Shown here one piece after another: positions 1 through 61,370 of a stretch of 64,000 nucleotides of DNA (position 1 is the first letter of the stretch; the number at the start of each line of letters is the position of its first letter). Position numbers and translations under genes: made by a program. The notes under the pieces were generated by a model. That model saw only the letters and a list, made by a program, of their open reading frames with translations. It did no database searches and was not told where the DNA came from. Origin of the DNA: Cytauxzoon felis (Eukaryota; Apicomplexa; Aconoidasida; Piroplasmida; Theileriidae); the NCBI GenBank assembly GCA_020283715.1, contig JAIQCW010000336.1:1-64000 (forward strand), in the 5' to 3' direction.

Positions 1-1989
1 AGAAGATGGTGCTAAGGATGTGTTGGATGTAACCTCAAGTGGAAGTGGAACCCGTAGCTGATCTCAGGGAAGCGGAGGGGGAGGTAAATAGAGAAGCTGT
101 CTGCAAGACGACCTCAGGTGGAACGGCGAGTGGAAAAGAGGTTGATGGATAGTAATATATAAATGTACATTGGTATTTTCGTTAGGATACACTAAAATAT
201 ATAAAACATACAGTAAATTCTATAAGTTTTTTATCTAATGCAAATTCTATCCTTTGAAATGGCTCAATATCATATCTATATTTAGTATGATGTAATTTTT
301 TTATTTACATACTGCGTTACAAATGTAAATGCTGATCCTGTTCTACCGGCTCTTGCTGTTCTTCCTACTCTGTGAATATAATCTTTAGAACTTTGTGGTA
401 TATCAAAATTAATTACCAAATCAACAGATGGTATATCCAAACCTCTACTACCGACATCGGTTACAACTAAAATTTTATATTTTCCAGATTTAAAATTATG
501 TAATGAATTCAATCTTAGATTCTGTGACATTTTACCGTGCAAGCAAACCTACAAATATAAACATCAACTTTTGAATCATTAAATACCGTAGTAAACTTCA
601 GTTGCTTTAAATATAATGCACATTTTTCTGCAGTCATACATGTATTACAAAAAATCATAACAGTATATCCATCAAAATGCCATAATAACGATGATAAATA
701 TGTCCATTTAAACTTTAATGGAATCAACAAATACTTTTGAACCAACAAATCCGACGTAGAATACTTAGTACTAACAGATATCTGAAATAAAGTATAAACA
801 ACCAAATAGAAACAAATTCACAGAAGTGTTATCCATAACATCATTAATATATGCAACCTATAAGTTTAGGTTACAGCCACTAATTCTCTTGCAGAGAGAT
901 CTCCACCTGAGGTCCTTCCACTAGGCGTGATGCCTCTTCCTTTTACATCCCCCTCCGCTTCCCTGAGATCAGCTGCGGGTTCCACTCGAGGTTACATTAC
1001 TACACTTCTGCCACGATCTCTGGAAGTGGCTCTACTCTTTAGAGATAGGCAAATAGAGAAGCTGTCTGCAGGACGAAGAAAGGTGGATTGGATCTCAGGT
1101 GGAGAGCTATCTGTAAGACGAAATAGGGCAAATCGGATAATAACAACACATTCACTGCCGTTACTTCGAATTCTAGTAACAAACCTTTACAGGTTTAATT
1201 AACGAAACTTTTTGTAATTTTGCTACTTTTGATGTCATCGTGGCGGAGAATAGATATGTTTTTCTATCTTTTGGTAAGGCCTAATGATTAATTGTAATAG
1301 TTGAACATAGAACATACATTTATAATTTTATCTAATGCTTCATCGAAATCCATTGATAGTATACGATCAGCTTCATCTAATACTAAATATTTAACGGATG
1401 ATATTGAAAATCCTTTGGTATTTTCTAGATGATCTGCTAATCTGCCTGGTGATCCAACAATTACGTGTGGTTTTTTGGCTAATTGCAAAGCTTGCGAAAC
1501 CATATCCAATCCACCAAGAATTATACAGATATCTAATGCGATAGAAGAACCAAGTGCTTTAAATTGTTCTGTAATTTGTACACATAATTCTCTAGTTGGA
1601 GCCAACACTAGACAATATAATCTTTGAGGGTTATTTAATAATGATTGTAGGATTGGTATAGTAAATGCTGCGGTTTTACCTGAACCTGTCTCAGCTAATC
1701 CTATTATATCATTGCCCTGTAATGCTAATGGTATAGCTTCAATCTGTATTTTCGTAGGTGTCTTCCATCCCAATTCCTTGCAGGCTAAGCATAACTCAGG
1801 GCAAACACCTAAATCCTTAAATGTTACTTCAGTATTATTACTTTCATCCTCCTCAATGACATTATCAACCTTAGATTTACGATCCAATGAAGCCATCAAA
1901 CGTGATTTATATGCCTCCAATTGTGCATCAGAATCTGAGATATCTGTATCCGAAGAAAAATCTCCTGTAGTCTTGCCATTGTTGGTCAT
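1..1989 (-). CDS. DDX47: DEAD-box RNA helicase DDX47/RRP3-like, partial
   Basis: ATP-dependent nucleolar RNA helicase of the Rrp3/DDX47 type, expected to act in 18S rRNA maturation. The start is the ATG at 1989. Exons resolved by splice motifs and frame are 1989-1318, 1280-1185, 781-587, 548-313 and 275-212. The gene then enters an intron that runs off the left edge, so the C-terminus is missing. Visible motifs are the Q-motif region, AETGSGKT (motif I), PTRELC (Ia), DEAD in [10 protein letters not shown] (II), SATMTSK (III), ARGLD-like SRGLDIP (V) and [11 protein letters not shown] (VI). Family assignment rests on the context of [13 protein letters not shown] and LIKPVK followed by VSTKYS, which match DDX47. 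Short introns are 37-39 nt. The long intron (1184-782) carries an interspersed mosaic repeat. Family identity is secure; the exact 3' end lies outside the window. Confidence 0.93.
30..140. repeat. mosaic interspersed repeat copy
   Basis: Reads T, inverted C1, inverted S2, T, inverted S3 (modules as defined in the summary). It lies in the last visible intron of the DDX47-like gene. Confidence 0.85.
849..1120. repeat. mosaic interspersed repeat copy with extra left flank
   Basis: Contains T, S4, C1, T, H and an S2-like slot, and occupies most of intron 3 of the DDX47-like gene. Its left flank (849-905, including TTACAGCCACTAATTCT) recurs at 17469-17530, so the unit is longer than the common core. 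Confidence 0.88.
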
Positions 1990-2295
1990 TGTTTATTTAA
2001 ACCCTTAGATTACGATGTTAGTGGATTCTGTTTAATACCTTATACAAGAGATAACTATGGGGAGGTGGATGTATTAAATTAATCATTATTTCATCGATAA
2101 TTCAAGAAGATTATCATTAAATTGAATCTTCAATAATTTAAAAAGTAAGTTTCTATCATTTTTTGTGAATTTACATAAATTTTCGACCATGAGTCCCAAC
2201 ACTACTGTACAGTTAAACTAGTGTTATATTTAATTTACTTCACATCCATCTTCTTATAGCTTCTTGGTATTTATTAATCCAAGATTTAATTTAAA

Positions 2296-2689
2296 ATGTC
2301 ATCAAGTACGTTTTTTTGTATCAACTGAAGTAAAAAAATTTTAGGAAAGGAACCTCAAGTGGATGTTGAGGACAAGGACTGCCCATCTGGGCCACTGTCT
2401 ATACTCGAAGATTCTGTTAAAAATAACACTCAAGTACTTATAAATTGTCGTAATAATCGCAAAATATTAGCAAGAGTTTGTTGATTTTTATGGATTATAT
2501 TGTATTAATTCTCAGGTTAAAGCATTTGATAGACATTGTAACATGATACTTACCGATGCTCGTGAAATGTGGACTGAGATCACAAAAGGTAGTGGTAATA
2601 AACAGAAGTTTATCAACCGTGATCGTTTCATCTCAAGACTGTTCCTTAGAGGTGACTCAGTAATCGTCGTACTTAGAAATCCGAAATAA
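2296..2689 (+). CDS. SNRPD2: Small nuclear ribonucleoprotein Sm D2
   Basis: Core spliceosomal Sm protein; D2 pairs with D1 in the heptameric ring on U1, U2, U4 and U5 snRNAs. Three exons were resolved: 2296-2305, 2345-2475 and 2516-2689, with introns of about 40 nt. The first exon is only 10 nt. The Sm1 motif spans the residues around [20 protein letters not shown] and the Sm2 motif is [13 protein letters not shown] at the C-terminus. The length of about 104 residues fits the D2 family. The start is the only ATG giving a continuous splice-corrected frame. The gene lies between divergent DDX47 and the VPS11 gene on the same strand. Confidence 0.93.
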
Positions 2690-2975
2690 AATTGAGCATG
2701 GCGAAGAGAAACGTAGTACCTACCTGATATAATGAGGGTAGAAGTATGACTGCAACAGAGTACCTAAAGTAATTATAGAGTGGTACCATAATATCACCGA
2801 TGATCGTCTTATAATCAAGCAAAATGTTAACAGTTAATATTAATCTATTAATTAGTTAATATATACATTTCTATTCTTACACATCTCTTCATCTCTCTGA
2901 TACGCTATCGCCCACTATGTTGATGCAGATGATTATCATTATTAATGTAGTAATGGCCCAAAAATATATATTAAA

Positions 2976-5900
2976 ATGTCGATAAAAAATGTCCGATTTG
3001 CGTCATTTTGTATTTCTAGAAAAACATCTTGTGAATATAGAGAATACGGGTATGTCTATTATGTGCCAAAACTCATAATTTATAATTGGATATAGCCGGC
3101 GCTAAATTGAATATATCATCAATAAATGATGTAACAAGTAGTGATTTATTGCTATTCTTATTGGAATCAACGGGTATAGTACATTTAGCATTTAAAAAAT
3201 TAGGTGATGATAATGTCTTAACATGTATATCATTTAAATCTTTTGAATTTGAAGGTGTTAATGTATTTTTTTGCAATGAAAATCAATTTTTAATTACGCT
3301 TGGGTATGTTCAATATTTCATTTGTCCTTTAAACCTATAGGAAAGATAATGATGTCGAAGGCGTTAAATTCAATGTCTATAACGTACCATGCCTGCCGGA
3401 AATACGTAAAAATCCAATTATACCAAAACTTACCATATCAATACCATTAATCGTTAATGATAACTTCAAATTCCAAGATGTAATCAAAATCGCAATCTCA
3501 AATTCAACACATCTCATCGCAGTAAGTTATCCACTAAGCGAATCCGATAAACGAGCCGTATTCTACCAACAGTACGATGCAATTCCACTTGAGGTCAGTC
3601 CTGCCGTCAGCTTCTCTATTTACTTCCCCTTCCAGCTCCCATAGATCGCTTCCAGGTATTCCGCTTGAGGTTATAATCACAATCTCATCTTCGCCACGAT
3701 CTCAGGGAGTGGCTATACTCTTTAGAGATAGGTAATTGGAAGGGGCTCCACGCCTAGTGGAAGACGACATCAGGTGTAATGGCTAGTGGGATAAGACGAT
3801 GTAACATAAGGTGAATAGCTATCTCGGGGCGAATACCAGTTGATGTATTAAATTTATATTCTCTTTTACAGATTGCTGTAAAACCTAATATTATTTATAT
3901 TTATCGCAATTATATACCTCTTATGAATATTGAAGGTGATAAATCCATATTAAAAATAAAGTTCGTTGAATATTCTATATCACCCAAAATTTGTTTACAG
4001 CCTTCAAGAATATGATGATAAGGTTAAAGGTGACGTAATAAATGATATTCATATATTGAATCCCATGGGCATAGATGTGTTATTTATATCAATGAAGAAT
4101 ATCATATTGTCATTTGAAGTTGCAGATCAAGTAGAATTAATCTTTAGTGAATATAGTAAGGTGGAATATGGTATATCATGTAAGATGTTGGATGATGAAT
4201 GTGTATCGATATATAAGAAGAATAATGAGATTAATATTTATAATATAAGACTGGGTAATGTAATAAATATAATCAAACTATATAATGATGATATAAACTG
4301 TAACTTTATATGCCCGTATAAGAATTACGTGGCGATTGGTACGTGTAATAACACATCTATGGCGACTTTAGTAAAAGTACAATCGGTTGTAATTGGCATG
4401 GAATATGTTGGGTATATAAATTATATAAATAATATTGAGCATATAACAAATTGTACTAATAATCTGTACATTATAACACGATCTAGTAATGGAAATGATA
4501 TTTTGGTGTTTAAACTTAAGAACAAGAATTTTTACAAAAGAATTAATATGTTGATTAATAAGAGACTGTTTAATTGGTGTATTAAATTATGTGAAGTTGA
4601 AAATAGAAGTGATAATGAAATTAAAACTTTATATAAAATTTATGGCGACTGGCTTTATAACAAGCCCAATTATAAAGAATGTATAAATGCATACTGTCTA
4701 GCTGGTAATATTATTGAGCCATCATATGTAATCGAAAAGTTTATCACCATTAATTATAAATTACATCTCTATAATTATCTATTGTATTTGCACCAATCTA
4801 AATTGGACAATACTATTTATACAGTGCTGTTGGTCAAGTGTCTACAATCGTTGTATGATAACAATGATACTCAATATGAAGTGTTATTGAAAGATTTTAT
4901 CAGCGAATTTGGTTCAACTCATTCGGAGAAAATTAAATTGTCGTTGAAGTACATTAGGAGCAGCGGTGCATATGAATTCGCAAAGATAATTTCACTCATA
5001 TTGAAGGACGAACTTGAATACGTTGATATATTAATCGATGATTACAATAACTTTAACGACGCTTTCGTACATTTAAATGATACCAGTAATCAGATTATAT
5101 CATCAGTCATACTCAAGCATGGAAGAAAATTGGCAAAAGCAGATAGAGAAGAATTATTGAAGCTCATACATAGAGTTTTTAAAGCTAATTATACATCCAA
5201 AACCAAGCTCTGGGGTTTATCTACCGTAGATATTCTTACAGCTCCACCTGAGGTTACAACCACCTCTTCCACTCGCCGTGGTGACTCCTCCAATTCACTC
5301 CCCATAAACGGTATAACCACTCCCGGAGATCGTGACGGTGAACAAGGTATGGATTGGGCCTCATGTGGAGTTAGTGCTGTACCTCAGGTGGAACCCGCAG
5401 CTGATCTACGGGAAGCGGAGGGGGAAGTAAATAGAGAAGCTCCATGCAATGGAAAAGATGAACCTCTTGTCGAACCTGTTTCCAAAACTGATCCTGGAGG
5501 GAACTATCCTCAGTATAAAGGAGGTAAAGGACCAATTTATATAAAAGATTCATCTTTTGGCGATGAAAAAATATTATATACATTTGATGAAGTAAGTTTA
5601 CCTCATGTAGACAATATAATGACTCCATTTCTCATAGAATTCTACTACGTATAATCATTCGGCTTCTCTTTCAATCGATGATATGGTGCGTATATTTCCA
5701 TTGGATGATGATTTTCTATTGGATATAACCGATGTGGATGAAGAGTGCAATACGATCCTATTCTTCTCTATAAAATTGGACATACTATTTAGTGATTTAA
5801 ATTTAAATGAGAATAAAATATGGAAATTGTTAAATAATAATACAAAATCTACAGAATATCAAATGATCGCATTGTTGTTGTGTCTAATTTATAAATATAA

Positions 5901-7155
5901 ACGCGGTGCCAATGCCATGGCTATAAAATTAGGATATTATCATCTTCCTCTCATCATTACCGAATCTGACGATAAATTCAATCTACTTGAATACGCACTT
6001 CATTACGGCTATAACGAACCTACATTATGGATCGGTATACTTACCATACTCAGGTTTGTTTCCGAATCATTATCACAACTGAGGCTTATCTACCAATGTT
6101 CCACTCGCCGTGGAGGCCTCTTCCACCTGAGGTTACAACCTTATCTTCGTCCTGCCGTCAGCTTCTCTATTTACCTATCTCTAAAGAGTAGAGCCACTCC
6201 CAGAGATCGTGGCGAAATATCCGAGACGATCTATGGGAGTCGAGGTGAGGTAAATAAGAAGGCCACCACGGCGAGTGGAAAGGAGAGTAGTACTGGACCT
6301 CAAGTGGAACCCGCAGCTGATCTCAGGGAAGCGGAGGGGGAGATAAATGAAGGAGCTGTCTACAAGACAACCTCAGGTGGAGTGGAAGAGGTGAAGGTAG
6401 TGATTGGACCTCTAGTGGAGCGTGGAATTCTCCTCCAAAATTTTCTCCGTCTTCAGTCGACCTATTTTTTCATCTGATGCAAGAAAAATATTTTTTTAAT
6501 ACCCACCGTAGATAGTGCCTCACACACTGTTTCATTATATTTACTATTATATAAATGTTATATACAGTACATTATATAATGACATGGATATGATAAGGGA
6601 GTCGTTGCAGCATATACAGAATTATAAATTATTATCATTTCCTACGCTGATAAATATATTTAAAGATCACCGCTATTTGACTTTTGCATATGTAAAGGTG
6701 ATTAATTCATGGATACAATGTAATTTTTTATAGGATTATTTAAGACAGGAGTTCAAGAGGATAGATGAAAATATAATAGAGTGTAAGAAGGATATACATC
6801 AGAATAATATGGAGCGTGATAAGATAAATAATGATTTACAGATTTTACAACATTCACATATAATAATAAACAATATAAATTGTTCTAACTGTGGTTTACA
6901 TTTAGAACTGCCGTGTTTACATTTCTATTGTAAACATTCATACCATGTGTATTGCGTTAGTCAGCACGGTAATTGTCCTAAATGTATAAAACATATTAAA
7001 GTTTGTTTAAATATATTTATAAATCATACGTCATATAATAGGATGATCCAAATCGCTCTGATAAAAATGCTGATTTTCAAGATAATTTTTTTAAATTCCT
7101 AAGTGGTTCAACTGATCCATTCGATTATATATCGCAATACTTTAATTATTATTAA
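2976..7155 (+). CDS. VPS11: Vacuolar protein sorting-associated protein 11 (VPS11)
   Basis: Core subunit of the HOPS/CORVET tethering complexes and a RING protein; in Apicomplexa the complex also serves traffic to secretory organelles (family knowledge). The gene is multi-exon. The N-terminal beta-propeller region is encoded at 2976-4500. The clathrin-repeat region (5' part about 4560-5220, with LYKIYGDWLYNKPNYKECI and EPSYVIEKFITI) aligns in order with animal VPS11. The second helical part is at 5690-6055 (EYQMIALLL, EPTLWIGIL), followed by YVK spliced to DYLRQEF and a C-terminal RING at 6878-6985 (CSNCG, CLHFYCKHSYH, CPKC). The end at 7153-7155 follows an exon encoding QYFNYY. Three long introns contain mosaic repeats. 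The donor near 3596 appears to lie inside a repeat end. The 5' exon junction near 3025-3075 is uncertain. Identity is strong; the exact exon ends are approximate. Confidence 0.9.
3584..3803. repeat. mosaic interspersed repeat copy
   Basis: T, S1, C2, T, H, S4 in a VPS11 intron. The left terminus CCACTTGAG/GTCAGT coincides with the only donor that keeps frame with the next exon, so the last codons of the upstream exon seem to be repeat-derived. Confidence 0.85.
5243..5480. repeat. mosaic interspersed repeat copy
   Basis: T, S3, inverted H variant, T, inverted C1, S5. It lies between coding segments of VPS11. The reading frame stays open across the copy, so it could be retained as well as spliced. 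Confidence 0.85.
6097..6423. repeat. mosaic interspersed repeat copy
   Basis: S3, T, S1, inverted H, inverted S3, T, inverted C1, S2-like, T. One of the longest copies, in the VPS11 intron between the EPTLWIGIL exon and the RESLQHI exon. Confidence 0.88.
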
Positions 7156-10175: not shown

Positions 10176-10259
10176 TTAACGCTAATAGTAACTGGAATTG
10201 ACCACAATGATGGAAGTAATGGGAACTTGGAGTAGGATGTACTCATATGATGTTTTATC

Positions 10260-13013
10260 ATGGGTACTGTATTGGGTGCAATTTGTATGTTTTTAAATGG
10301 CTTTGTTACATTGGTTCCTTATCATATAGTAGTACTATGTGCAAATCATGTGATCAAACGTTTTCATTTACCCCTATATTCTGTATCTCTGTTCATATAC
10401 AGATTCCATAATCCTATGGAATTGTCTAATTTGTTTTCCACAGCCCTTGCTTTCGCATTATCATTACTTAATGATGGTACATTTGATACTAAAAATGAAG
10501 ATAATATTAAATTTAGAAGGAAAGTATCATTTATTGCAATGTGGGTAACACTAGGTACTACAATGTTATCATGCTTGATATTTATTATCGGTGGAGATCA
10601 CGGTATTTTCCAGCTATTCTACTACAGTATTATTTTAATGACACTTTCCAATGGTTTCTCTTCATGTTTCGCCTTTTCTGTTAATTCCAACTCGATAATG
10701 TATGCATCTGGTATATCTATATTCTCATTTGTAACCTTTTTTTTACAAAAAATCTATAAACACTTTTATCATAAGTATAATTGGAACAACTATGATTACA
10801 ATTTAGTCATCGTGCAATATTCCTTCGCCATCTTCTCCATCTTTCTTACATGCACATTATGGACTGTAGATCAACTTGCTGAATTAAATATTGATGTTAA
10901 TAGAGATTTTAATAATGATATAGCTAAGCTTCGTGTGACTGTAGGTGGACTTGTGGCTAGACGCACACGCGTCGAAGTTAATTTAAGCCTAACACCCACT
11001 CAAGAGGGACCTAATAATGGAGCTTATTATAGAACTGGTGATATACAATTTAGAGTTGAAAAGGTTCAGAATGATTCCACTAAAGGAGTGCCATATGGTT
11101 ATGTAAGATATGAACATAGATGTATTAATTATCAATCTTTTTCATCAGCTTTCATTAGACACGATGGAATTAAATTAGATGGAATATGGATTGATGCTGA
11201 TCAAAACATTAATTCTGTTTATGTATATTATCGTATTAATGCTTATGATCCTATAAATGAAGTTCCATTAATTGTTTGTACTAAATCAATAGATTGCGAT
11301 ATTAAATATTATAAGAGAGGTCAAACATGGAGTGACGCTGGCCAACCACTTAATGGTGTAGATCCGGAATCTACAACCGCTGGTAGTTCCGGTGGTAAAC
11401 TTGCAACGACACTTAATGGTCTCAAAGATAAATATGAAATTAATCTTAATCAGACCACTCATAATGGTACATACAAAGCGAATGCTAGCGGTTTAGAAAT
11501 TAAGGTTACTAAAGATATTACCGTATCTAATGGAGTATTATCTGTCTACAATAGGTATAAACATTCGGTTTCTAATGGCAGTACGAATACATTTATGTTA
11601 AATTATGTTAAACACAATAATGTTACGTTGAATGGAATAAAAGAATATGGTCAAAATGTCCAATCCGTTTATGTATATTATCATAAATCTGATACTTACT
11701 TCCAATTTCCATTACTTTTATGTATTAAGATTAATAATAGTGTTCGTAAATATTATTACAGAGGTAGGACATGGTATGAAGAACATTCTCTTAAAGATAT
11801 AGACCCAGAACGGTCTAGTTCTGCTGATAAAATTAGACATAAACTTGATATGCTAAATGATATACATGAAATTAGGCTCGAAATCACTAATACAATTGAC
11901 AACGGTAGTTACAAATCGTCTGCATCTGGTACAACAATTACAGTCGTTAAGAACGACAGTTATACTACCAATAATGTACCTTCAGGATATATGGCATTTG
12001 CTCATGGAGGTAGCATAAGTGGTACGGTCAAATTTAAGCATAATGGCAATGAACTTGTGGGATTACCTACTTCGGGTGTAAATATTGACAACAGCAATAA
12101 ATTGTGGATATACTATAAGCTAGAGAATGACAATCCTATCATCGATAAGCCATTATTAATATACGTTAAAGTGAATGGTATAGATAAATGGTATCATAGA
12201 GGACTTAAATGGGAAGAAACTACGGACATTACGGGGAATCCAAATGATAGTCAAATTAATATTGCGTCAAGCATGGAAAAATTGTTTAAGGGTAAATTAG
12301 CAAGACAAGGTACTTTCAAAGAATTGATTTATTCTGATAATGAGGGACATTGGTCTCCCATATTAATGCTTTCCCTTTCCTTGACAATTGCTTATGTATT
12401 TCACCCCATTATTGCCCCACATTCATTAATTGATAACGAAAGAGATGAGATTATGGATTTAACTATTATGATAATATCTTTAATACCCAATTTCATATTG
12501 ATTATTCTAGATAATATTCAAGGAGATCATGGTCCAAGCGGCAAATGGGACGAAGGCAGATGGTTCTATAATTATATATGGCTAATAGCCTGTATCCCTT
12601 ATATAGTTTGTATTTTTATTTTAAGTTTTATGTTTTACTTTCCAAATAATTCGGTTTGTCGTCATGTTAAAGATAATCCATATGTTCTTGGATTTTTTAG
12701 TATCACAATCAACACTAATCTAAAATTAATGGTATCTACTGCACTTGGTGGAGGGCCTGTACAGAGTGATATTGGATTTATAGGTTCTATAAGTCAATTT
12801 AATATTTTGTTAATGTTATTATTACAATTGTTAATAACATTGTTTTGTAATTGGCATTTTAATACACTTTCACTTGCCGAAAATGATTCTCAACCTTTTG
12901 CATATCGTGTATACTCACCTTGGAGCTCCCTACTACTTACAAACCCCACATATGTCCAACAAGTTCCAAGAATCGATCATTCTCAATATCCAGAACTGAT
13001 ACCAGGGTTATGA
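10260..13013 (+). CDS. Multi-membrane-spanning Tpr-like family protein with FAINT-like repeats
   Basis: A 917-residue single-exon protein. The N-terminal half has a conserved signature (FLNGFVTLVPYHIVVLC, KRFHLP, HNPMELS) and about five membrane segments up to residue 210. Residues about 220-680 form a long hydrophilic insert with three repeats of about 140 residues, each ending in a VYVYY...PLLxC...KYYxRGxxW pattern, reminiscent of FAINT/DUF529 repeats. The C-terminal half returns to membrane segments with HWSPILMLS and GGGPVQ. The architecture resembles Theileria Tpr-type families; function is unknown, probably a surface or internal membrane protein. A weak family upstream motif lies at 10148-10175. 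The gene stands alone in a large intergenic region. Confidence 0.82.
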   Translation: MGTVLGAICMFLNGFVTLVPYHIVVLCANHVIKRFHLPLYSVSLFIYRFHNPMELSNLFSTALAFALSLLNDGTFDTKNEDNIKFRRKVSFIAMWVTLGTTMLSCLIFIIGGDHGIFQLFYYSIILMTLSNGFSSCFAFSVNSNSIMYASGISIFSFVTFFLQKIYKHFYHKYNWNNYDYNLVIVQYSFAIFSIFLTCTLWTVDQLAELNIDVNRDFNNDIAKLRVTVGGLVARRTRVEVNLSLTPTQEGPNNGAYYRTGDIQFRVEKVQNDSTKGVPYGYVRYEHRCINYQSFSSAFIRHDGIKLDGIWIDADQNINSVYVYYRINAYDPINEVPLIVCTKSIDCDIKYYKRGQTWSDAGQPLNGVDPESTTAGSSGGKLATTLNGLKDKYEINLNQTTHNGTYKANASGLEIKVTKDITVSNGVLSVYNRYKHSVSNGSTNTFMLNYVKHNNVTLNGIKEYGQNVQSVYVYYHKSDTYFQFPLLLCIKINNSVRKYYYRGRTWYEEHSLKDIDPERSSSADKIRHKLDMLNDIHEIRLEITNTIDNGSYKSSASGTTITVVKNDSYTTNNVPSGYMAFAHGGSISGTVKFKHNGNELVGLPTSGVNIDNSNKLWIYYKLENDNPIIDKPLLIYVKVNGIDKWYHRGLKWEETTDITGNPNDSQINIASSMEKLFKGKLARQGTFKELIYSDNEGHWSPILMLSLSLTIAYVFHPIIAPHSLIDNERDEIMDLTIMIISLIPNFILIILDNIQGDHGPSGKWDEGRWFYNYIWLIACIPYIVCIFILSFMFYFPNNSVCRHVKDNPYVLGFFSITINTNLKLMVSTALGGGPVQSDIGFIGSISQFNILLMLLLQLLITLFCNWHFNTLSLAENDSQPFAYRVYSPWSSLLLTNPTYVQQVPRIDHSQYPELIPGL

Positions 13014-13087: not shown

Positions 13088-13165
13088 CCCCCGGAGATCA
13101 GCACCGGTAATTCAATTGTCACATCCACATTATCTTCACCATCGCCACGATCTCTGGGAGTGATT
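13088..13165. repeat. partial mosaic interspersed repeat
   Basis: A degraded C-like part (CCGGAGATCAG) and an H part (GCCACGATCTCTGGGAGTG) remain, 75 bases downstream of the family gene ending at 13013. Confidence 0.6.
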
Positions 13166-14086: not shown

Positions 14087-15346
14087 TTAAAATGATAATT
14101 GATGATCATTTATTAATTTACCTTTAGGTAGAATATCATATGGTAATAATGTTGACTCATAAAATTTTAATTTATACTTGAAGACGTATATTATCAGACT
14201 ACAAGTGCCTACCACTAATGTAAATTTTATCATCAGTGATATCTTATTATCGTCTCTATTTATCAATTTTCCACTTATATGATCTAATTTGTGGATCTTA
14301 CCATCTTCCATATGACCCATTATTGCCGTGGCGTTCCTTCCCCTACAAGCCAGTAGTGTATATGATATTGTAAGTAGTAGTAACGATACAATTACACCTT
14401 CGTATCTGTAGTGGTAATTATTAGACTCTGAAAATAATGATTTTATATTTTCAAATGAATAAAATTTCGAAATTTCAAATTTGTTCGGGCATTCATTGTG
14501 TATTGATGAAAATATACACGATATGCAAATATAATATATGAGTAAAGATGATAGCAGTAGGACCGTATTGTTCTTTGAGTAGATTATTAGAGTTGAAAAA
14601 GATAATGCAAGTACTATCAACTTGTAGCATTTGGTCACTGCATTAAGTGAAAGCAGTATCAAGTTGTCGTTATCATCATATTCCGTTAATATATCTTCAT
14701 CTACCACACCCGAAGTAGCAAAGTGTTGCTCTCTACTTGAGGTCCTGCCATCACGTTCCCGAATATCAGCTACGGATGTATGTCTGTAGTCCTCAAACTT
14801 CTTGATGTTGTCACCGATAAAATTTAATAGGTTATCCGATAAAGTGTTGATATTCCATTCTATACCTTCACTCAATTTGCTTATATAATCATTAAAACTA
14901 GAATTTAAGATCAATACTTCAGGTAATGCTTTTATATCCAACTTTTTAAGTATCCATTTATTTTCATTTCCAAAGGTATTTATATAAAAGAAATACAATT
15001 TTTTACACTCTTCCTGAGAACCGACCCCCTTTTTAATATAACATTGTCTACGACTCTCTCGGCAATACATTGCTATCCTGGTAAAGAGCATAAGCATCTG
15101 TGTATGATACTTTATATCTGTATTTATGTATAGTACAATTGGTATATAATTTATATTAAATTTATTTGGATTCCCATCATTAAAATTTATTAAATATACA
15201 TATTCATACGAATTTAGCTGCATAACATGATCATTCTTTAACCTGTCCTCAATGTAACCCATAGGATCATCTATAGACGTTAATATACTCGCATTATAAT
15301 AAATTAATATATATATAAATAGATTTATATATTTATATTTCATCAT
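14087..15346 (-). CDS. OST3: Oligosaccharyltransferase OST3/OST6-like subunit
   Basis: Predicted ER membrane protein with a thioredoxin-like lumenal domain followed by four membrane segments, the architecture of OST3/OST6/MagT1. A signal peptide covers about residues 1-22. The thioredoxin-like part runs to about residue 180 (VYLINFND, PIVLYINTD, LYFFYINTF, IKALPEVLIL, where the proline matches the cis-Pro region). Membrane segments fall near residues 240-255, 260-280, 318-336 and 372-392. At the position where OST3 usually has CxxC the sequence reads DIKYHTQM, so the redox pair appears lost. Residues about 193-210 (VADIRERDGRTSSRE) are encoded by a fragment of the interspersed repeat. At 419 residues it is longer than yeast OST3. 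Assignment is from architecture, so moderately confident. Confidence 0.7.
   Translation of the reverse strand: MMKYKYINLFIYILIYYNASILTSIDDPMGYIEDRLKNDHVMQLNSYEYVYLINFNDGNPNKFNINYIPIVLYINTDIKYHTQMLMLFTRIAMYCRESRRQCYIKKGVGSQEECKKLYFFYINTFGNENKWILKKLDIKALPEVLILNSSFNDYISKLSEGIEWNINTLSDNLLNFIGDNIKKFEDYRHTSVADIRERDGRTSSREQHFATSGVVDEDILTEYDDNDNLILLSLNAVTKCYKLIVLALSFSTLIIYSKNNTVLLLSSLLIYYICISCIFSSIHNECPNKFEISKFYSFENIKSLFSESNNYHYRYEGVIVSLLLLTISYTLLACRGRNATAIMGHMEDGKIHKLDHISGKLINRDDNKISLMIKFTLVVGTCSLIIYVFKYKLKFYESTLLPYDILPKGKLINDHQLSF
14733..14790. repeat. exonised fragment of mosaic repeat
   Basis: Read on the plus strand: CTTGAGGTCCTGCCATCACG and then GAATATCAGCTACGGAT, a diverged T-S1-C1 run. It lies within the open reading frame of the OST3/6-like gene with no obvious flanking splice sites. 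Confidence 0.6.
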
Positions 15347-17468: not shown

Positions 17469-17745
17469 TAACAACCTATAAGTCTAGGTTACAGCCACTA
17501 ATTCTTTTGCAGAGAGATCTCCATCTGAGGTCCAATCCAACTCTCTTCGTCCTGCCGTCAGCTCTTCTAATTACCTATCCCTAAAGGGCGAAGCCACTCC
17601 CGGAGATCGTGGCAGTAGAGATGTTAGTAAGGATTGGACCTCAGGTGGAACCCGTAGCTGATCTATGGGAAGCGAAGGGGGAGGTAAATATAGAAGGCTG
17701 TCTACAAGACGACCTCAGGTGGAGGCTCCATGCAATGGGAACAGA
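17469..17745. repeat. mosaic interspersed repeat copy with extra left flank
   Basis: Flank shared with 849-905, then T, S1, inverted H, T, inverted C1, inverted S2, T, S5. It is intergenic, between the start of the uncharacterised basic protein and the 3' end of the RRM gene. Confidence 0.88.
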
Positions 17746-18396: not shown

Positions 18397-18595
18397 TTCC
18401 ACTAGCTGTTCCATCTGAGGTCCTTTCATTGTCTTGCAGACAGCTCCTCTAATTACTTCCCCGTAAACGGTAGTCACTCCCGGAGATCGTGGCGATGTTG
18501 AAGATAGTAATGATTGGACCTCAGGTGGAACCCGTAGCTGATCTCAGGGAAGCGGAGGGGGAAGTAAATAAGAAAGCTGACAGCAGGACATGAGG
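18397..18595. repeat. mosaic interspersed repeat copy
   Basis: T, S2 variant, inverted H variant, T, inverted C1 and an S1-like slot. Intergenic, between the RRM gene and the FHA gene. Confidence 0.85.
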
Positions 18596-19309: not shown

Positions 19310-19495
19310 GCCGCCAACTCTCCACCTGAGGTCGTCTTACAGACAGCTTCTCTATTTACCTCCCCGTAAACGGTAATGCTACTCCCATTGATCGTGGCGA
19401 TAAACCCGCAGCTGATCTTAGGGAAGCGAAGGGATAGGTAAATAGAAGCTACATGCAATGGAAAAGATGGACCTCAAGTGGAGGCTGTCCGCAAG
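19310..19495. repeat. mosaic interspersed repeat copy
   Basis: T, S2, inverted H variant, inverted C1, S5, T. It lies between the FHA gene's 5' end and the NADAR-type gene's 3' end. Confidence 0.85.
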
Positions 19496-25201: not shown

Positions 25202-25773
25202 TCTTATACTATTAAACTAATATTATACTATCTTACAATCATTCATATACAAATCTACATTAAATTCATTACAACTGCTCCATACAAATTACGAATCTTA
25301 AAGATTTTATCACCACCATTCAATTGATAAATAAATAAAGATTCTGTGATACATCCATTAGCCACTGCACATCATATTGATTCCACCCATTATTACAATA
25401 CGACATCACACTGTGCAAAAGGGTGTTACATGTTTCTCGGATGTATTAAATACCCTAATGTTCATCTTTTGAAGAGTATTTTTTTAATTTTATACTTGTA
25501 ATTGACTAATTTATTATATACTAAGTTACGTCAATTAGGTAAAATCCAGATTCCATTATATGCATTAATTCCATACACATTTTAATATAGAGGTCAATAA
25601 CTATCATTTATAATCTATTATTAAATATTTATGATTAATTTATCCATTTATCCATAATAATTGTGACTTGTTTCAAACATACTCCATCAGTCACCTCATA
25701 CCCAGATACTTAGAAAACATCACGAGAGATCGGTATATATAACTCGGTAATTAATATATACAACACGAAATCC
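25202..25773. other. intergenic region between AMA1 and the CDC50 gene
   Basis: About 570 AT-rich bases upstream of AMA1, presumably holding its promoter. No open frame of note and no mosaic repeat. Both flanking genes are on the minus strand. Confidence 0.55.
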
Positions 25774-40469: not shown

Positions 40470-40700
40470 CCTGTAGAGAGCTCTCCACCACCCGAGGTCC
40501 AATCCTCTACTCCTTCCTTTCCGCTCGCCGTGGATGCTTCTTCTAATTACCTATCCCTGAAGGGTATAGCCACTCCCGGAGATCGTGGCGAAGGTGATGG
40601 TATGGATTGGACCTCAAGTGGAACCTGGAAGCGAACTAAGGGAGCTGGAAGGGGAACTAAATAGAGAAGCTGTCTGCAGGACAAAGCAAACTCTGGTGTA
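40470..40700. repeat. mosaic interspersed repeat copy
   Basis: T, S3 variant, inverted H, T, inverted C2, S2-like. It is either intergenic or in the first intron of the small gene at 40200-40459. Confidence 0.86.
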
Positions 40701-42403: not shown

Positions 42404-45400
42404 ATGTCTAAAATTTTATTTTGGATGCGTAAAAATGATGATTACAACGAAGTTATTGAGGGGGAATTAGAATCTCTAATAGAATCGCATACGAGTTTAA
42501 AACCAAAATTGTCCTATAATCGCCATGACGACTCTGAGTTATATTCGACATCACTCAAGAACTACTACACTAAACACATCTATGAGGAAAATGTTGACAA
42601 GACTATTGCGGAACAAAGTGTCTTCATATACACTGATTTCATGGATTTAAGTGTAGTTACCGTTATACTTCGACATTCTACCTCTATCAAGGCCATCGTC
42701 AATGTAAGTTTATACATAAATGTGGTTACTTAGTATCTATTTACCCTATTCAAATAACTGGGAGGGGGATAATTTGGAATAAAGAAAAAATGGAGCTAAG
42801 GATATTGTCATAAAATGGGCGCTCCCGAGGAGTTAAGTAAGGCTGCTATGTTTATGATGGGTTTTATTATGTTGATGCCTCACCGTATTGCGTTATCGTG
42901 TTCGCCTTATTTGGTTAAACGTTTCCATTTGCCCATGCCTACTGTAGGCCTGTTCATTTATAAGATTCATAGTCCTATGGAACTGTCCAGTTTATGCGGT
43001 ACATTTTTGGCTAATGTTTTAACATGGGTTAATGATGCTACCATTAAAACTACATATCTTAAAAGGTATTGTTCCATAATCTTCATGTGGTTAATGTTTC
43101 TCTGTTCTGTTTTGACGTATTATTTATTTGTATCCGGCGATGAATTTGGATATTTACAATACTTCTATTGGAATATGATCTTTTTTACTCTTATTTATGG
43201 ATTCATGTCATCATTTTGCTTCGGTATTAACTTTAACACATCATTGGCTGGAGCTGGATTACCTACATCCGGTGGTTTTACATTTATGTTACATAAAGTA
43301 TATAAATGGTTTTATAAAAAATATCATTGGGCTGAATATGATTATAATCTAATGATCATGCAATTGACTACTACTATGGGATTCCTTCTCTTCACTTCCA
43401 TCCTATGGACCGTTGATCAATGTTGGAATATATTGCAGCCGACATATGAGGGATGGGCTATGGAAGGAATACTTTTAGTAGCCAATCATAAAACTAGTGA
43501 ATTAAATTCAAAAATACAAAAATGGCAAAATTTTGAACAAGATACTGATGCCGACAAAGAGAAGAAATTTGAACATCTCAAAGCTTCAGATAGATTTAAC
43601 AAGTTTGTCGCAGTTGCAGCATATTTAACGAGTGAAGTTGGTAAAAGTAAACCCACAATTAAAAGTGCCACTAAACAAGGCAAGGAAAAAAATGAGGAAG
43701 TAAATGGTCTGATTTTAATTATTACAGTTGCTTCATTCTTATTAGTTTTATTATCTCACTCAGTCGTTGTTTCAGCTACATTTTTAGGTAAAAATGATCC
43801 TGATGGTATTTACATAATACCAATATCGATAGACTTTTCAATACTATCATTTTTATGCATATTCTCTGGAATTCTATTGAGTAATCATTTGGATAAAGTT
43901 GCATTGATGAATAATGGGACTGCTCTGACGATTACACCTGAAAAAAATAAAGGAAGTGATTCAAACACTAAAAATGCAAATGAGGCCAGTTATCTTAACG
44001 GTAGTCAAGCTCCTAATCAAACTGATCTTGAAACAGCTGTTGGAAAAGGTTACAGCAAAGATGAGGTAAAGACAGCACCTGAGGTTAAAGAACTAGCTAA
44101 GGCTAATATTATTGCAGTTATTGGAATTGTGTCAATTATTGTTATATTTGCTTGTGTTTTATTGTTTTCTATAATAATTTTTTGTCGGGATAAAAATTCA
44201 CTCGCCGCCCCACTTTTTCTCTTCACGTTTATAGCAACTACAGCTGCCCTTACCTTCGGAGGTATTGCAATTTCGAGTGCGATAACAGTGTTTGTACTGT
44301 ACAATAAACTAAAAGATACTGATGAAACTAAGAATAGTCAACCATTCAAGAATGCCAGAATTTGTAGTTATGTACTCCTTCCATCTTTTGGAACTATTGC
44401 ATTTTTTGGTGTAGTTTTATCTTTAACATATTCATATACAAATTGTCCAATTATCGCCTTCATATTATATGGGGCAATTGCTGGTGGGGCGGCCATCACT
44501 GCGGATGACAGTATAAAGAAATTATTTACCGACGGCAAAGATTGGTCTCCTATTGGTATGCTTGCGTTATCTATGGGTTTTGTTTATTTTTTTTATCCAT
44601 CAATTAGTCGACGACGAGGATGTTGCCAATGATATTGAATTGTGGGCATTATTAATTTCCTCCATTCCAACCCTCCTTATAGCCCTATTGGATATAATAA
44701 AAGAAGCTAACGGCCCAGGTGCTGAATGGTCTGATAATAAGCGTAAACCTTGGCACGGTACACATGCAGCCTTTGTCCCATATTATATTTGTGTCTTTTT
44801 CTTCTTTTCCATATTACACTTCCCGGAAGGTAGAATTGGTAAATTTTTTAGAGGGCATTCCATGAGAACTAGATTATTATCTGTAACATTCAATACTGTT
44901 GAGGAAACTCTAGAGGCTGTTGGTTTTGCTGGAGGTGGTCATCAAGCCGGTATTAATGGTCCGATCATACAATTTAATGTCTTATTTGCATATTTCGTTA
45001 TGACAGTATCCATGTTTACTGAATATTCGTACATGTTAATATACAGGAATTCTTCTGGAAGTATTTACAAAAAATCATGATATTGGGTAACTGGGGTTAA
45101 TTAACACCATAATTTGAAAAATACCCCAGAATACTATATGGGGTTCCATTCGAAGTTCATCCTTGTATTCTATCACACCTTTTCATCCACTCGCTATCGT
45201 GGCTTCTCCTTCACCTGATGTCGTCCTGCCGTCAGCTCTTCTAATTACTTCCCCCTCCGCTTCCCTGAGATCGCTTTGGCTATATATTTATGTTTTATAC
45301 TTTACTTTATATTCAGGTATGGGAAGAGTGTTATAGTAATTATGAGGATTTATTGGATTTATTGTTGAAGAATTGTAGAATGTTGATTGATAGTTATTTA

Positions 45401-46660: not shown

Positions 46661-48099
46661 TTATTTAAATAATTTAATAAATTTATCCTCCAATTCATGC
46701 AACAATTTCGAGCATATAATTAGTGAATGTAGTGGTGGTCCGAAATCAATGTTAAATAATTGATTAATTGTACCCGATTTAATATATTGAGTACTCGAAC
46801 CCAATCTTGCTATACCAATACAAATTGTATCATCAAAGTCTATAGTTAATATTGCACCCCATATTTATATATAATATATACCTAATTCATTACGTTTATT
46901 ATTTATAATCCTTAATTGTTCCAATGCCACATTTACGCTCATGAATCTATAAATATAGCTAAAATAATAAATCATAAAAATCAACCTAGATGGTTCAAAT
47001 ATCATTCTATCCTTCATCAAATTTTCAACTGATCGTTCCTTTACCTTAATATCTAAAGTGGGGAAAATTAGTTTTGTAATGGGGGATAAAATACCCAATA
47101 AACACAATGTATGTAGATTTAATTTTAAATTATTAATAATTTTATCATAAAAACTATCAGGATACCAATTATTATCAAAAAATGGTATAGATACAGTTTC
47201 ACCAAATCTATATAACTAAAAAATATAAATACACCAAGTTACATTAAACAAACCTGTAGACCACATATACCAATAGAACTCATTATACTCGCATTATGCA
47301 CAACATTAACATCTAAACCCATCTCTATCGCCTTATAATACAAATCGGTATGTGTAGTAGCACTAGAAAATACATTTATATTCCAAAGGAACTTAAGAGT
47401 GAGGAGTTATCTACCCGAATGGTCTCTGTCCATTACTTTTATACCACAACCTTATATTCGTCTTGCAGACAGCTCCTCCACTTGAGGTCTTTCCACTAGG
47501 CGTGGTGCATCTTCTATTTACTTCCCCTTCCAGCTCCCGTAGATCGCTTCCAGGTTCCACTTGAGGTCAAGTACCAACTACATAACCGCCACGATCTCCG
47601 GGAGTGGCTTTACTCTTTAGAGATAGGTAATTGGAAGAGCTGACGGCAGGACGACCTCATGTGGAACGACGAGTGGAAGAAAAGGTGAACTATATTTGAT
47701 CTAACGTGGTATAGAATCATCTCGGCTACTTTATTCCTTCGCATCGTTCAATTTAGATCTATAGACAAACCTGAATGGATCGCCGGAGATGAGTATAACA
47801 ACATTTTTACTTTGGGCTTCGTGAAGTATCTTGTGATTATCCTCTTCGATAGTTATTCTACATGCTTCGTTTATTTTTTTATTATAAAATGACTCCTGTA
47901 TAATTGAGCATGTTAATAGATAGTTGGATTCTTATTACTACTGGAATATAATACTAACCAACTCGTCAATTTTGGATTCTATTAGCAACGACGTATAGAT
48001 TTCGAGGTACACAACATCGGCTTCCTTTATGATCTTATATCCCTTTAATGTTATATCTTCTACATCACCCAAGCCTAAGCCTACAAATGACAACACCAT
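46661..48099 (-). CDS. DPH5: Diphthine synthase (DPH5)
   Basis: SAM-dependent methyltransferase of the diphthamide pathway that modifies eEF2. The start is MVLSFVGLGLGDVEDITLKGYKIIK (ATG at 48099), nearly the family signature. Then VVYLEIYTSLL, KKINEACRITIEED and VVILISGDPF (the GDP substrate motif) follow. After a long repeat-bearing intron come [78 protein letters not shown] and a C-terminal IGIARLGS...PPLHSLII. Stop at 46661-46663. Length and order agree with human DPH5. Its start is about 280 bases from the divergent adenylate kinase gene. Confidence 0.93.
47455..47690. repeat. mosaic interspersed repeat copy (representative)
   Basis: S2, T, S4, C2, T, H, inverted S1, T, then a CGACGAGTGG S3-like end. 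It shows the module order most clearly, and its two ends are inverted relative to each other. In a DPH5 intron. Confidence 0.9.
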
Positions 48100-48379: not shown

Positions 48380-52885
<4,506 letters not shown>

Positions 52886-52916
52886 CATTTAATATATACA
52901 TGTAACAAACAATCTT

Positions 52917-54475: not shown

Positions 54476-56561
54476 ATGTCTAGATTGATATTTCACAAGT
54501 TGTTATCATGTAGATTTCTAATTGTTAATAGAATATGTAAATTAAGTAATACTTTCAACAATTTCGGAAAATGTGTCTACTATGGGTATTTTGGTACCGC
54601 TGTAGAATCTCCAAATAACGTATTAACTACTGGCGTATTGAAAACTCTGTCATTGTAAGTTTATGTCTCGAGACCTTCTCTGGTGTTCATTTATCACCTA
54701 TAGTAAATTAAATGATCAATTGAATCGCGTGTTAAACGAATCGAATCTCAGATTCGGTATCAAAGGTGATGGTAAAATCCGTATAGGATTAATTACACCA
54801 CTTAGTAATGTTAGTGTGGCTGTTATATCTTCTCTGCTATCAAGGCCTAATATTGCGTTGGCATTCTTGCCGCTACCAACGGTTATATTAAAGGACGATT
54901 TAAATATCAAATTAAATGACTACCTCGTACGGAATACTCTAAAGAATTTAATTGTGGAAGCGACATTAAATTTAATTTTAGTAAGTTGATTGAATAGTTA
55001 TTTATGAACCACATTTCTACAGACTAGTAGTGATTACTACACACTAACAAGTCAAATATGCAAGGAATTGTTAATACCAATAGCTATATTTAACAACTTC
55101 AATTTGTCAACTGAAGATGAATACATCATCCATATGACCTCTAATTATATACTCGGAAACACAGAACTAAACAGAGCACTGAAGGTTGAAGAGAAGGGGA
55201 TAGAGTGCATAGAGGAAGATGAACGAAATGGAATGATCCCATGCGATTTAATGAGCATGGACAGTGAAATTTATATTTTTGATGACTTTTCAACAGCAAA
55301 TTCCAAGGTGGTTGCTCATTTTCTCCCTGATTTATCATTGGAAATCGAGAAATTTAAATCTGTAATTGAGTTCAATAGCAGTGACAACATAACAAACTGT
55401 CTACACTCGCACGAGTATTCTTCATTTATCCATGGGATACTGGTATTTATTACAACTCAACATCAGTGATTTACGTTCTTACCCTTTAGGTACCTTTGAG
55501 TTGTAACTCTCAGATTACTCTACCACCATCGTTGGATATAAATGCTATAATTGACACATTGACCTCTTCCATTGATGTTACGCATATGTTATGTAGTTTG
55601 GATACTCTAACGTTCGTTTTTCATCCCCAGTTCTTATATCCCCACTCAGGTTGTTATGTGATGAGGTGTCTAGAGGTATAGAGGTTAATTTCCCGAGGAA
55701 TATAATAGTCATTTCAAGTGTATTGGAAATGAATAAGTTGGACAACTTGATGGAAGACGTTGGTATAAAGTCTGATGTCATAGAGCTGATAACAATACCA
55801 GAGGCAGGTATAATAGCGTCGAGATTTGTAAAGGACGGATCCTCATACACATTCAATCACGGTGAGATTTTTTTTTCTGAAGTTAAAGGGAATTTATAGG
55901 CGTTGAAATCGCAGAAGATTTAAACAAAATTGTAATCAAAGTCAAATCTTCAAACATCTTCAAGGTATTTTATAAAACAAATTATATACCGACGAGTCTA
56001 CACTCGAGGTCCAATCAACCTTTCCTTCGTCCTGCCGTCAGCTCTTCTATTTACTTCCCCCTCCGCTTCCCTGAGATCAGCTACGGGTATCCACCTGAGG
56101 TTACATCCCCTGTACCTCTAACATCGCCACGATCTCCGGGAGTGGCTATACTCTTTAGAGATAGGTAATTGGAAGAGCTGACGGCAGGACGGACCTCAAG
56201 TGGAGAAGAGCTCCATGCAATGGAATGAAAGGACATCGAGTTAGAAGTCGACGGCATGAAGGTGAATAATAATCTTCCATGGGGTACAGCATATCGCTGT
56301 GTTATATGTATTATATAGGGTTATTATAATAGGGTGAATTATACAAGGGGTGTTATGGATGGTAAAGTATTTACAAAGGTGATTGAAAAGGTTGATGATA
56401 CTACAAGGTTATTGGAAAATCATAAGGATTATGTTTTATATTTTAAAAAGAAACGTGATAAAATGAAGAAATTCCCACAAGGTTATATTAAAAAAGTACC
56501 ACTTGAAACACAATTTTGGGGTAATTTCACTGGAAAAAATAAACATCACTCTGTACTCTAA
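54476..56561 (+). CDS. Uncharacterised protein, possibly mitochondrial
   Basis: MSRLIFHKLLSCRFLIVNRICKL at the start looks like a mitochondrial presequence. Inferred exons continue with NDQLNRVLNESNLRFGIKGDGKIRIGLITPLSNVSVAVISSLLS, then a long segment with EDEYIIHMTSNYILGNTELN, IYIFDDFSTANSKVV, VNFPRNIIVISSVLEMNKLDNLM, and, after a repeat-bearing intron, VNYTRGVMDGKVFTKVIEKVDDTTRLL...KKKRDKMKKFPQGYIKK to 56561. About 550-600 residues, mixed alpha/beta in look. No recognised motif. Exon boundaries in the middle (55000-55700) are approximate. Confidence 0.65.
55992..56245. repeat. mosaic interspersed repeat copy
   Basis: T, S1, C1, T, H, inverted S1, T, S5. It has opposed S1 modules near both ends, so terminal inverted repeats are visible. 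Intron of the gene at 54476-56561. Confidence 0.9.
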
Positions 56562-56639
56562 ATGGTAATTTCAATGAAATATCAAATTTCATTTATTTTA
56601 AATCATTTAAATATTTATTTCAACTTCAATACTTCCATC

Positions 56640-56815
56640 ACTACCTCCACATCGCCACGATCTCCGGGAGTGGCTTTACTCTTTAGAGATAGGTAATTGG
56701 AAGAGGCCTCCACGGCGAGTGGAAGACTATACATTCCACTAGGCGTGGTGCCTCTTCTATTTACTTCCCCTTCCAGCTCCCAGAGATCGCTTCCAGGTAT
56801 TCCACTTAATGTCTA
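56640..56815. repeat. mosaic interspersed repeat copy
   Basis: H, inverted S3, S4, C2 and a T-like end. Intergenic, between the gene ending at 56561 and the family pseudogene. Confidence 0.85.
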
Positions 56816-56941
56816 TTCTTCCTGGTTGAAAATGGGATTATAATGGGGTTTATTATCAAAATTATAGAGTTATTTATCGTAACTTGATTCATGTATGGTT
56901 TTATCATTATAACAATTTCATCCTAAATTTTAATAAATTAG

Positions 56942-58950: not shown

Positions 58951-59004
58951 GGCATTATTAAATGTCGAGATCATCATATTTTATCTCATTCTAAATTGTC
59001 CCTC

Positions 59005-59045
59005 AAATTCCCTGAGATCAGCTGCGGATATTCCACTTGAGGTCC
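59005..59045. repeat. short mosaic repeat fragment
   Basis: Right part of C1 (CCCTGAGATCAGCTGCGG) and T, between the broken and the intact family genes. Confidence 0.75.
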
Positions 59046-59178
59046 ATTAACAAGGTCACGTTCTTCCAGTTATCAATACTAAATGGTTGAACATCAGGTA
59101 CCATGAATTATGGTGTTAATTATCCCCATTTTCCCATATTATAATTTTTACATATTAATCATTAGCAATTTTCAAGAT

Positions 59179-60843: not shown

Positions 60844-60845
60844 CT

Positions 60846-60915
60846 CGTTTTATCCTATTTGTAATATCTCCATCCTTTTCCCTTCAAATTATCCTCCTCC
60901 CGTTATTTAAAGAAA
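60846..60915 (-). promoter_or_regulatory. multi-TM family upstream motif
   Basis: On the minus strand: TTTCTTTAAATAACGGGAGG, AGGATAATTTGAAGGGAAAA, then GGATGGAGATATT, directly upstream of the start at 60843. Same order as the blocks before 42815 and 48924. Confidence 0.7.
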
Positions 60916-60954
60916 TACTTTGTCTTGACATAAAGATATATGAGCAATCTCCCT

Positions 60955-61035
60955 AGGTATCCACCTGAAGTCGCCTTGCAGACAGCTTCTCTATTTACTT
61001 CCCCTTCCAGCTCCCGTAGATCGCTTCCAGGTATA
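60955..61035. repeat. partial mosaic interspersed repeat
   Basis: T, S2 and C2, about 110 bases upstream of the short-form family gene on the opposite reading direction. Confidence 0.8.
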
Positions 61036-61370
61036 AAACCAAATCTCGCTGAGATAGGACTAAAGTGAGAGAAATCATGTTTGAAAGGATATCTCAAGGA
61101 ATATAAAATGGAATGAAATGAGGTTTCTTAAACTCAGTACAATCAACAAATTCCTTTTAAATGAGATATTGACATTAGAATTTCATCCATTATTCACTGA
61201 GATATCTTCATGAGTTTCCCCAGAAATGATGAAATTCCTTCAAATTTTGGTAGTAAAATGAAGTAGTGAAATTAGCAATAATTGACCTCAAGTGGAACCT
61301 GGAAGCGATCTACGGGAGCTGGAAGGGGAAGTAAATAAAAGAGCTGACGGCAGGACGACCTCACATGGAG
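61035..61370. repeat. long duplicated segment, copy 2
   Basis: Same order as 51830-52145: CTCGCTGAGATA, a shared block with TGAGTTTCCCCAGAAATGATG, then T, inverted C2, inverted S1, T at 61270-61370. It lies between the INTS9-like gene and the short-form family gene. Confidence 0.82.

Follow-up and report, generated by a model that had tools for sequence, protein, structure and literature searches.

Foldback (FB) elements and miniature inverted-repeat transposable elements (MITEs) carry modular, variable inverted arms around a centre, include small forms without coding capacity, and leave target-site duplications. Bacterial interspersed mosaic elements of the repetitive extragenic palindrome (REP) type are extragenic mosaics in which palindromic units, joined by linkers, alternate in orientation, and they are tied to Y1 transposases. 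Yeast mitochondrial GC clusters are GC-rich hairpin insertions spreading in AT-rich DNA. Rickettsia palindromic elements (RPEs) move by a mechanism that is unclear. According to the accessible text of PMC10969869, RPEs are short bacterial palindromic repeats (~150 bp, tens per genome, several families) that have an open frame and are inserted in unrelated genes without disturbing the reading frame. PARCEL repeats of bacteria and some eukaryotes are described in the accessible part of PMC2996958 as palindromic DNA encoding repeat peptides, namely tandem 25-residue amphipathic domains in open reading frames (ORFs). Here we describe a GC-rich mosaic hairpin repeat of Cytauxzoon felis, starting from a stretch of 64,000 nucleotides (contig C172, bases 1-64000; the window).

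The C. felis repeat resembles RPEs in being a palindromic repeat placed in frame in unrelated genes; the comparison is one of placement, and unlike RPEs the repeat is nuclear, numbers thousands, and combines its modules freely. Its long modular inverted arms of variable length recall FB elements, but neither a target-site duplication nor any of the tested transposase families was detected. Y1_Tnp, to which REP elements are tied, was not found. Unlike yeast GC clusters, the repeat forms longer composites in the nucleus, and unlike PARCEL repeats it is an interspersed mosaic found also in introns and intergenic DNA. We propose, with a probability of about 0.6, that it is a non-autonomous, selfish, coding-compatible mosaic foldback element spreading by recombination-type copying. 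A copy would be a pair of inverted arms in which interchangeable short hairpins (D, Q, and P) stand between conserved joints (T and J), with T as the usual end and a ~230-bp AT-rich centre in some copies. Spread and module exchange may occur by template switching at hairpins and gene conversion between copies and not by a classical transposase, a view drawn from the joint change of both hairpin arms, the almost free assortment of modules, and the lack of any visible hallmark of transposition. The modules would share one frame in which the sense strand stays open, and insertion into an exon would then add a tolerated, probably disordered peptide and the gene would survive.

The genome searched comprised 8.62 Mb in 181 contigs, a part of the published assembly (361 contigs, 9.1 Mb; source Winnie-VA, according to the accessible text of PMC3748084). 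The T motif, ACCTCARGTGGA, occurred 3,304 times forward and 3,280 times in reverse (6,584 in total), whereas the reversed control motif gave 0 + 0 matches. The many genome-wide copies that the initial annotation of the window had named, together with precise empty sites in a sister species, as support for mobility are thus present. We read eight stretches totalling 323,488 bases: the window, the whole of contigs C111 (183,236 bp), C1, and C3, and 10-kb pieces of C8 (two), C4 (one), and C37 (one). They contain 106 islands of the repeat (21,229 bp) and 154 exact T motifs. Scaled by the genomic T count, this sample, which is non-random (C8, C37, C1, and C3 had known matches, and the C4 piece was picked in a gap), extrapolates to ~4,530 islands, 908 kb, or 10.5% of the assembly.

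In the window, a k-mer mask gave 27 islands, each within 75 bp of one of the 29 starts in the initial annotation. Its figure of about 30 copies therefore holds for 27 starts recovered independently, while those at 13088 and 14733 are weak remnants. Fuzzy matching found 79 T, 20 Pa, 15 Da, and 14 Q modules, compared with 5, 0, 1, and 0 in an equal 64 kb of island-free C111, and islands occurred in both orientations, as annotated. Most window islands have a GC content of 46–61% (one, 33%) against 33% for the window, so the reported GC enrichment was reproduced. They span 39–350 bp and are therefore too short for a transposase gene; the initial annotation had likewise noted no transposase in any copy.

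The common module order in the sense direction is T' - D' - J' - Q' - Pa' in one arm and T - P(b or c) - J - D - T in the other, where a prime denotes reverse orientation. T is a 12-bp palindrome-like motif and the usual element end, J is a joint resembling GTAAATAGAAGAGC, and D stands for several short hairpins that are unrelated to each other. The P hairpin has the loop GATCYnnGGGA, of which there were 208 occurrences in the 345,249 bases formed by the eight stretches and seven further loci of 3.1 kb. Its stems are of eight types: GCCAC/GTGGC, GCT/AGC, AGC/GCT, GGAT/ATCC, AAGT/ACTT, GAC/GTC, GAAC/GTTT (two cases), and GGTCC/GGACC (one case). Q segments formed a hairpin in 63 of 64 cases (12.6 expected after base shuffling), with the four stem types CTCT/AGAG (47), CCCT/AGGG (10), CCGT/ACGG (5), and CCCA/TGGG (1). 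Both arms of the P and Q hairpins thus change together. Predicted folding in ten hand-picked elements had z scores from 0.0 to -8.5, strong in some elements and unremarkable in others. Additionally, two window copies share ~45 bp of hairpin-like sequence outside the T' end (860-900 and 17470-17520), perhaps a further module.

Covarying hairpins with a conserved loop would also be expected of a structured-RNA family or of regulatory sites kept for function. We regard this as very improbable: Rfam gave 0 matches in the window at gathering scores, and the near-random module combinations, the use of both orientations, the exonic copies, and a 150-kb island-free stretch do not fit a required function.

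The islands are highly diverse, as the initial annotation had stated for module choice. When J is ignored, 100 distinct module strings occur in the 106 islands and 53 in the 55 full-core copies. The left D did not predict the right D (p=0.955, n=49), nor did the right P predict the right D (p=0.70, n=50); the idea that D modules match between arms was rejected, as no concordance was found. For the intron copy at 37321 (350 bp; 371-bp query), the 40 candidates scored out of 3,051 included no full-length match besides itself. The best by score covered 235 bp at 92% identity, others reached up to ~311 of 371 bases at 78–84% (the longest at 78%), and different places matched different parts of the copy. 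The copy at 51681 contains a perfect 34-bp tandem duplication of a T' + linker unit, and the second copy in the antigen gene cf76 contains a 33-bp tandem D-T unit; these show local duplication.

A T' end and a T end, that is, terminal inverted repeats with up to 2 mismatches, delimit 57 of the 106 islands. At the outermost T ends of these 57 elements, direct repeats of k=2–9 showed no consistent excess over permutation: 35 against 30.9 expected at k=2 (p=0.17), 2 against 0.30 at k=6 (p=0.037), and none at k=7–9. Within 60 bp of the islands, 76 elements gave no direct repeats beyond permutation levels. Target-site duplications of two or three bases may be present. Y1_Tnp and DDE_3 transposases were not found in the genome, and further transposase families were not searched; the Helitron_like_N search gave no match, but none in its controls either. 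The RVT_1 search found one gene, which from its motifs we take to be telomerase-like.

The main rival explanation is that the copies form a genuine foldback or MITE family, moved in trans by an unrecognised host-encoded transposase, with module shuffling secondary. The inverted arms and the conserved 12-bp inverted end of the 57 elements argue for it, as do the long elements, in which a 231-bp AT-rich centre lies between two half-islands. A first look across the genome gave 400 candidates for this centre. Of the 40 that were scored, the 39 other than the query were near full length and 83–88% identical, which looks like one old burst. On the other side are the missing target-site duplication, the failure to find Y1_Tnp and DDE_3, the telomerase-like nature of the only RVT_1 gene, and the report, in the accessible text of PMC9141347, of no class II transposons in Apicomplexa. 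We consider such a family unlikely, yet it is the alternative to be taken most seriously. The annotation of the copies as non-autonomous foldback/MITE-type elements can thus be kept for their mosaic, foldback-like, and non-autonomous character and not for the MITE assignment.

The initial annotation missed that there are many exonic, in-frame copies of one orientation, two of them in cf76. We counted islands of at least 60 bp lying in an ORF with at least 150 open bases on either side; this test requires an open frame, and frame-breaking exonic copies would escape it. It was passed by 16 of 97 islands; when the islands were shuffled in place 100 times, on average 1.31 passed and never more than 4. 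Reverse-complementing the islands in place left 2 in long ORFs. In the stretches fetched after the idea arose (C1, C3, C37, and C4), the count was 8 of 35 against a shuffled mean of 0.66 (maximum 2), and 0 after reverse-complementing.

Codon phase was fixed for several modules in 17 candidate coding islands: Prev 14/14, Q 9/9, and Jfwd 11/11. Pfwd was in one phase in 23 of 27 cases, the other 4 being in a variant module, and T used two phases (11 and 8). Monomer spacing took three phases in non-coding copies and two in coding ones. The 18 islands in the ORF list had the orientation of the gene in 16 cases, the opposite orientation in 0, and an undetermined one in 2; the other 88 islands were - in 46, + in 32, and undetermined in 10. 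The probably intronic copy at 6099 is included in these codon-phase and orientation sets, in the latter as one of the 16, and excluded from the coding sets for substitutions and strand openness. The sense strand was open in 15 of 15 coding islands and the antisense strand in 1 of 15. Outside the ORF list, 52 islands of at least 140 bp and known orientation were sense-open in 9 cases (2.2 expected) and antisense-open in 2 (5.7 expected). Some of these 9 may be unrecognised exonic copies. The element is inherently biased toward an open sense strand, which can explain much of the one-sidedness.

Several host genes were recognised. Two inserts lie in the Spb1 gene. At the site of the first, T. orientalis, T. 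annulata, T. parva, and B. bigemina have either nothing or a shorter stretch of unrelated sequence. The second (alignment columns ~658-790) occupies the site of a block that is conserved in Theileria/Babesia and absent in C. felis; it may be a replacement rather than a clean insertion, and the element may have arrived with loss of host sequence. A NOG1-like GTPase, first guessed to be IF-2 until comparison pointed to NOG1, separates its G1 and G2 blocks by 305 residues, against four in an archaeal relative; the Theileria NOG1 orthologues have a linker there too, ~260 residues shorter. In a Gpi16-like protein (33 bits, Pfam cut-off 27), the islands lie between two collinear profile blocks (169-206 and 382-493). 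Scored separately, the Gpi16 pieces reached 19.3 and 17.5 bits, below the cut-off of 27, and a DEAD piece 21.9 bits, below its cut-off of 26; the piecewise Pfam test gave no match for the N-terminal Gpi16 piece, the NOG1 N-terminal piece, or the right-hand DEAD piece. Further genes with exonic copies encode VPS11, proteins with helicase_C/PHD and with zf-CW domains, and a protein that matches the DEAD-box family weakly. Pfam assigned no family to 5 of the 10 coding ORFs, and a PDB search with the Gpi16-like protein gave no match.

The gene for cf76, the antigen of C. felis that has been studied most, contains two copies. The protein matched C114:6540-8708 at 100% over 723 residues (cf76 is placed at 6540-8711 of contig00195 in the accessible text of PMC6310948), and its residues ~176-273 and ~575-657 are element-encoded. 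According to the accessible text of PMC3748084, the 2,172-bp ORF was amplified from complementary DNA (cDNA; DNase-treated RNA) and called single-exon, its transcripts were detected in schizonts, and survivor sera react with cf76, most strongly with the C-terminal region. By primer position this region contains copy 2, and two primers given in that text fall in the first element. The allele data are two sequences from this one gene, a 723- and a 706-residue form. In their alignment of 730 columns, the 61 that differ all fall within columns 119-305: 45 in the columns of element 1 (177-281) and 16 just beside it, with copy 2 identical. Most of the allelic variation is thus located where the element is. 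The cDNA-cloned ORF together with the allelic difference therefore indicates that the element is part of an expressed, variable protein. A 30-bp tandem repeat was reported in the C-terminal region, present once in one of eleven samples, in the accessible text of PMC3748084; its length differs from the 33-bp tandem unit of copy 2.

With cf76 as the query, 62 of 3,347 candidate places were scored, and among the matches listed were 42 distinct frames of at least 300 codons (cf76 included, the longest 3,670 codons) with a stop-free match, a set biased toward open copies. The concentration of variation in element 1 and the strong seroreactivity of the region containing copy 2 would fit a selected diversity system, in which module exchange is kept for the variation that translated copies bring to surface antigens or for the decoy epitopes that they present in common. 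This is improbable, as only 16 of the 97 copies pass the exonic test, the hosts include housekeeping Spb1, the NOG1-like GTPase, and the Gpi16-like protein, copy 2 does not differ between the two alleles, and the peptide shows no conservation. Within modules, coding copies had 48 synonymous and 100 non-synonymous changes and non-coding copies 116 and 257; stops numbered 0 and 9, the 0 being by construction. The element peptide looks tolerated rather than selected.

At least three window copies lie in introns, at 900 (DEAD-box), 3582 (VPS11-like), and 37321 (PRP2-like), one sense and two antisense. The window features are as follows.

25-136, + strand: island, right half only (T Pb J Db T T).
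900-1106, - strand: island in intron 782-1184 of a DEAD-box helicase gene (- strand; DEAD domain match), element sense; splice sites GTTTGT ... TTTCAG by eye.
3582-3778, - strand: island in intron 3522-3871 of the VPS11-like gene, element antisense; splice sites GTAAGT ... TTTTACAG by eye.
5242-5455, + strand: island in frame in the open exon 3960-5651 of the VPS11-like gene.
6099-6419, + strand: sense-open island in the VPS11-like gene, probably intronic (6054-6567), outside the strict coding set.
13140-13164, - strand: remnant, one P hairpin with 2 mismatches at 13144.
14732-14755, + strand: doubtful remnant, T' (1 mismatch) and degenerate D' (3 mismatches), which may be chance.
17520-17738, + strand: island T' Da' J' Qc' Pa' T Pb Db T He.
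18410-18570, + strand: island T' Db' J' Qb' Pa' T Pb J Da.
19318-19483, + strand: island Da' T' Db' J' Qb' Pa' Pb J He T.
22615-22780, - strand: island Da' Qa' Pa' T Pb H T.
26383-26433, - strand: partial island.
26779-26902, + strand: island.
27930-28042, - strand: island.
29375-29597, + strand: island.
30341-30517, - strand: island.
37321-37670, - strand: island in intron 37263-37697 of a PRP2/DHX16-like helicase gene, element antisense.
39068-39302, + strand: island T' H' Qa' Pa' T Pb J H T.
40487-40678, + strand: island.
45220-45272, + strand: partial island.
47458-47677, - strand: island.
48755-48807, + strand: partial island Qa' Pa'.
51681-51830, - strand: left half of a long element, with the 34-bp tandem duplication.
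51832-52062, no strand: AT-rich spacer (centre) of this long element.
52065-52144, + strand: right half of the long element begun at 51681.
56001-56225, - strand: island.
56652-56807, - strand: island, module order rearranged.
59008-59046, + strand: partial island.
60975-61033, - strand: left half of a second long element.
61029-61269, no strand: AT-rich spacer, second copy.
61284-61358, + strand: right half of the second long element.

For the three intron copies, it is the intron DNA flanking the element that supplies the GT and the AG (gene joins by eye), and the element was accordingly rejected as being the intron itself. Copy 6099 was dropped as an exonic case, since splice signals suggest an intron. 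Introner-like elements, each insertion of which creates a new intron, would account for copies in introns, but the outside splice sites, the open and in-frame exonic copies, and the single-exon cf76 make this scarcely credible.

Several observations weigh against a selfish, coding-compatible mosaic element. Q and the right P gave a borderline result (p=0.055, n=53) and are not clearly independent. At least 13 of the 208 P loops, single cases, have no such stem, and 5 of the 10 hand-picked elements had a folding z above -2. Without strand separation, there was no excess of open frames (27 against 26.2 expected in 50 islands); separating the strands and looking at flanking ORFs changed this picture. 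The 48/100 and 116/257 changes given above reveal no protein-level conservation and leave a peptide function unsupported. Retention in messenger RNA concerns one gene and comes from the accessible text of PMC3748084. The mobility-gene search covered four families, which leaves room for an undetected transposase. Empty sites, the other half of the support for mobility named in the initial annotation, were seen at the protein level, against Theileria/Babesia Spb1 and Theileria NOG1, and none was available at the DNA level from a sister strain or species.

The distribution of the repeat is uneven. C111:1-150000, in the largest contig, has no island in 150 kb, whereas the remaining sample has one about every 1.6 kb. 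Near 140 kb of this contig, the CpG ratio falls from ~0.85 to 0.53–0.66, and the AAC share of Asn codons is 0.30 in the island-free part, 0.15 in the window, and 0.08 in the C111 tail. Masked C8 has a CpG ratio of 0.91, so CpG alone is no marker of the island-free stretch. A compartment, an introgressed or foreign segment, and an assembly join are candidates. A polymerase-epsilon-like gene (by eye) seems to cross from the island-free into the island-rich part; an island in a gene that resembles DNA polymerase epsilon by eye, beside its zinc-finger region, is not open throughout and is probably intronic.

Among the other genes of the window, 10251-13013 and 48885-51800 encode two related multi-membrane proteins with repeated domains and no Pfam match, which we take, by eye, to resemble the Theileria Tpr family; the reading frame of the latter terminates within an island. 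The AMA-1 gene lies at 23576-25216 on the - strand (Pfam PF02430, E 5.8e-116).

The initial annotation knew of no described piroplasm repeat of this architecture. Likewise, we found no description among the matches listed in the literature searched, in which subscription journals were mostly not covered. Term searches of the accessible text found no mention of it in PMC6310948 and only the 30-bp repeat in PMC3748084. No relative was found in viral contigs or in a prokaryote contig collection, where the 22-base Pa motif had 1 match, in Pseudarthrobacter, probably by chance.

A published survey found no transposable elements in C. felis and discarded MITE candidates in Apicomplexa as likely false positives (accessible text of PMC9141347), whereas here about a tenth of the assembly, by extrapolation, is one repeat family. 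In-frame palindromic inserts are known from Rickettsia; here they occur in the nuclear genome of a eukaryote, in far larger numbers and with a visible module grammar. A bolder and rather doubtful possibility is a combinatorial peptide-insert system, in which ~4,500 elements (extrapolated) exchange parts, the hundreds that would be exonic rewrite inserts in housekeeping proteins and surface antigens, and a selfish repeat would thereby generate protein and antigen diversity. That the vaccine-candidate antigen cf76 carries two copies, with similar peptides in many other frames, bears on serology and antigen choice, and how hairpin-rich DNA multiplies without a recognised transposase becomes a testable question in this parasite.

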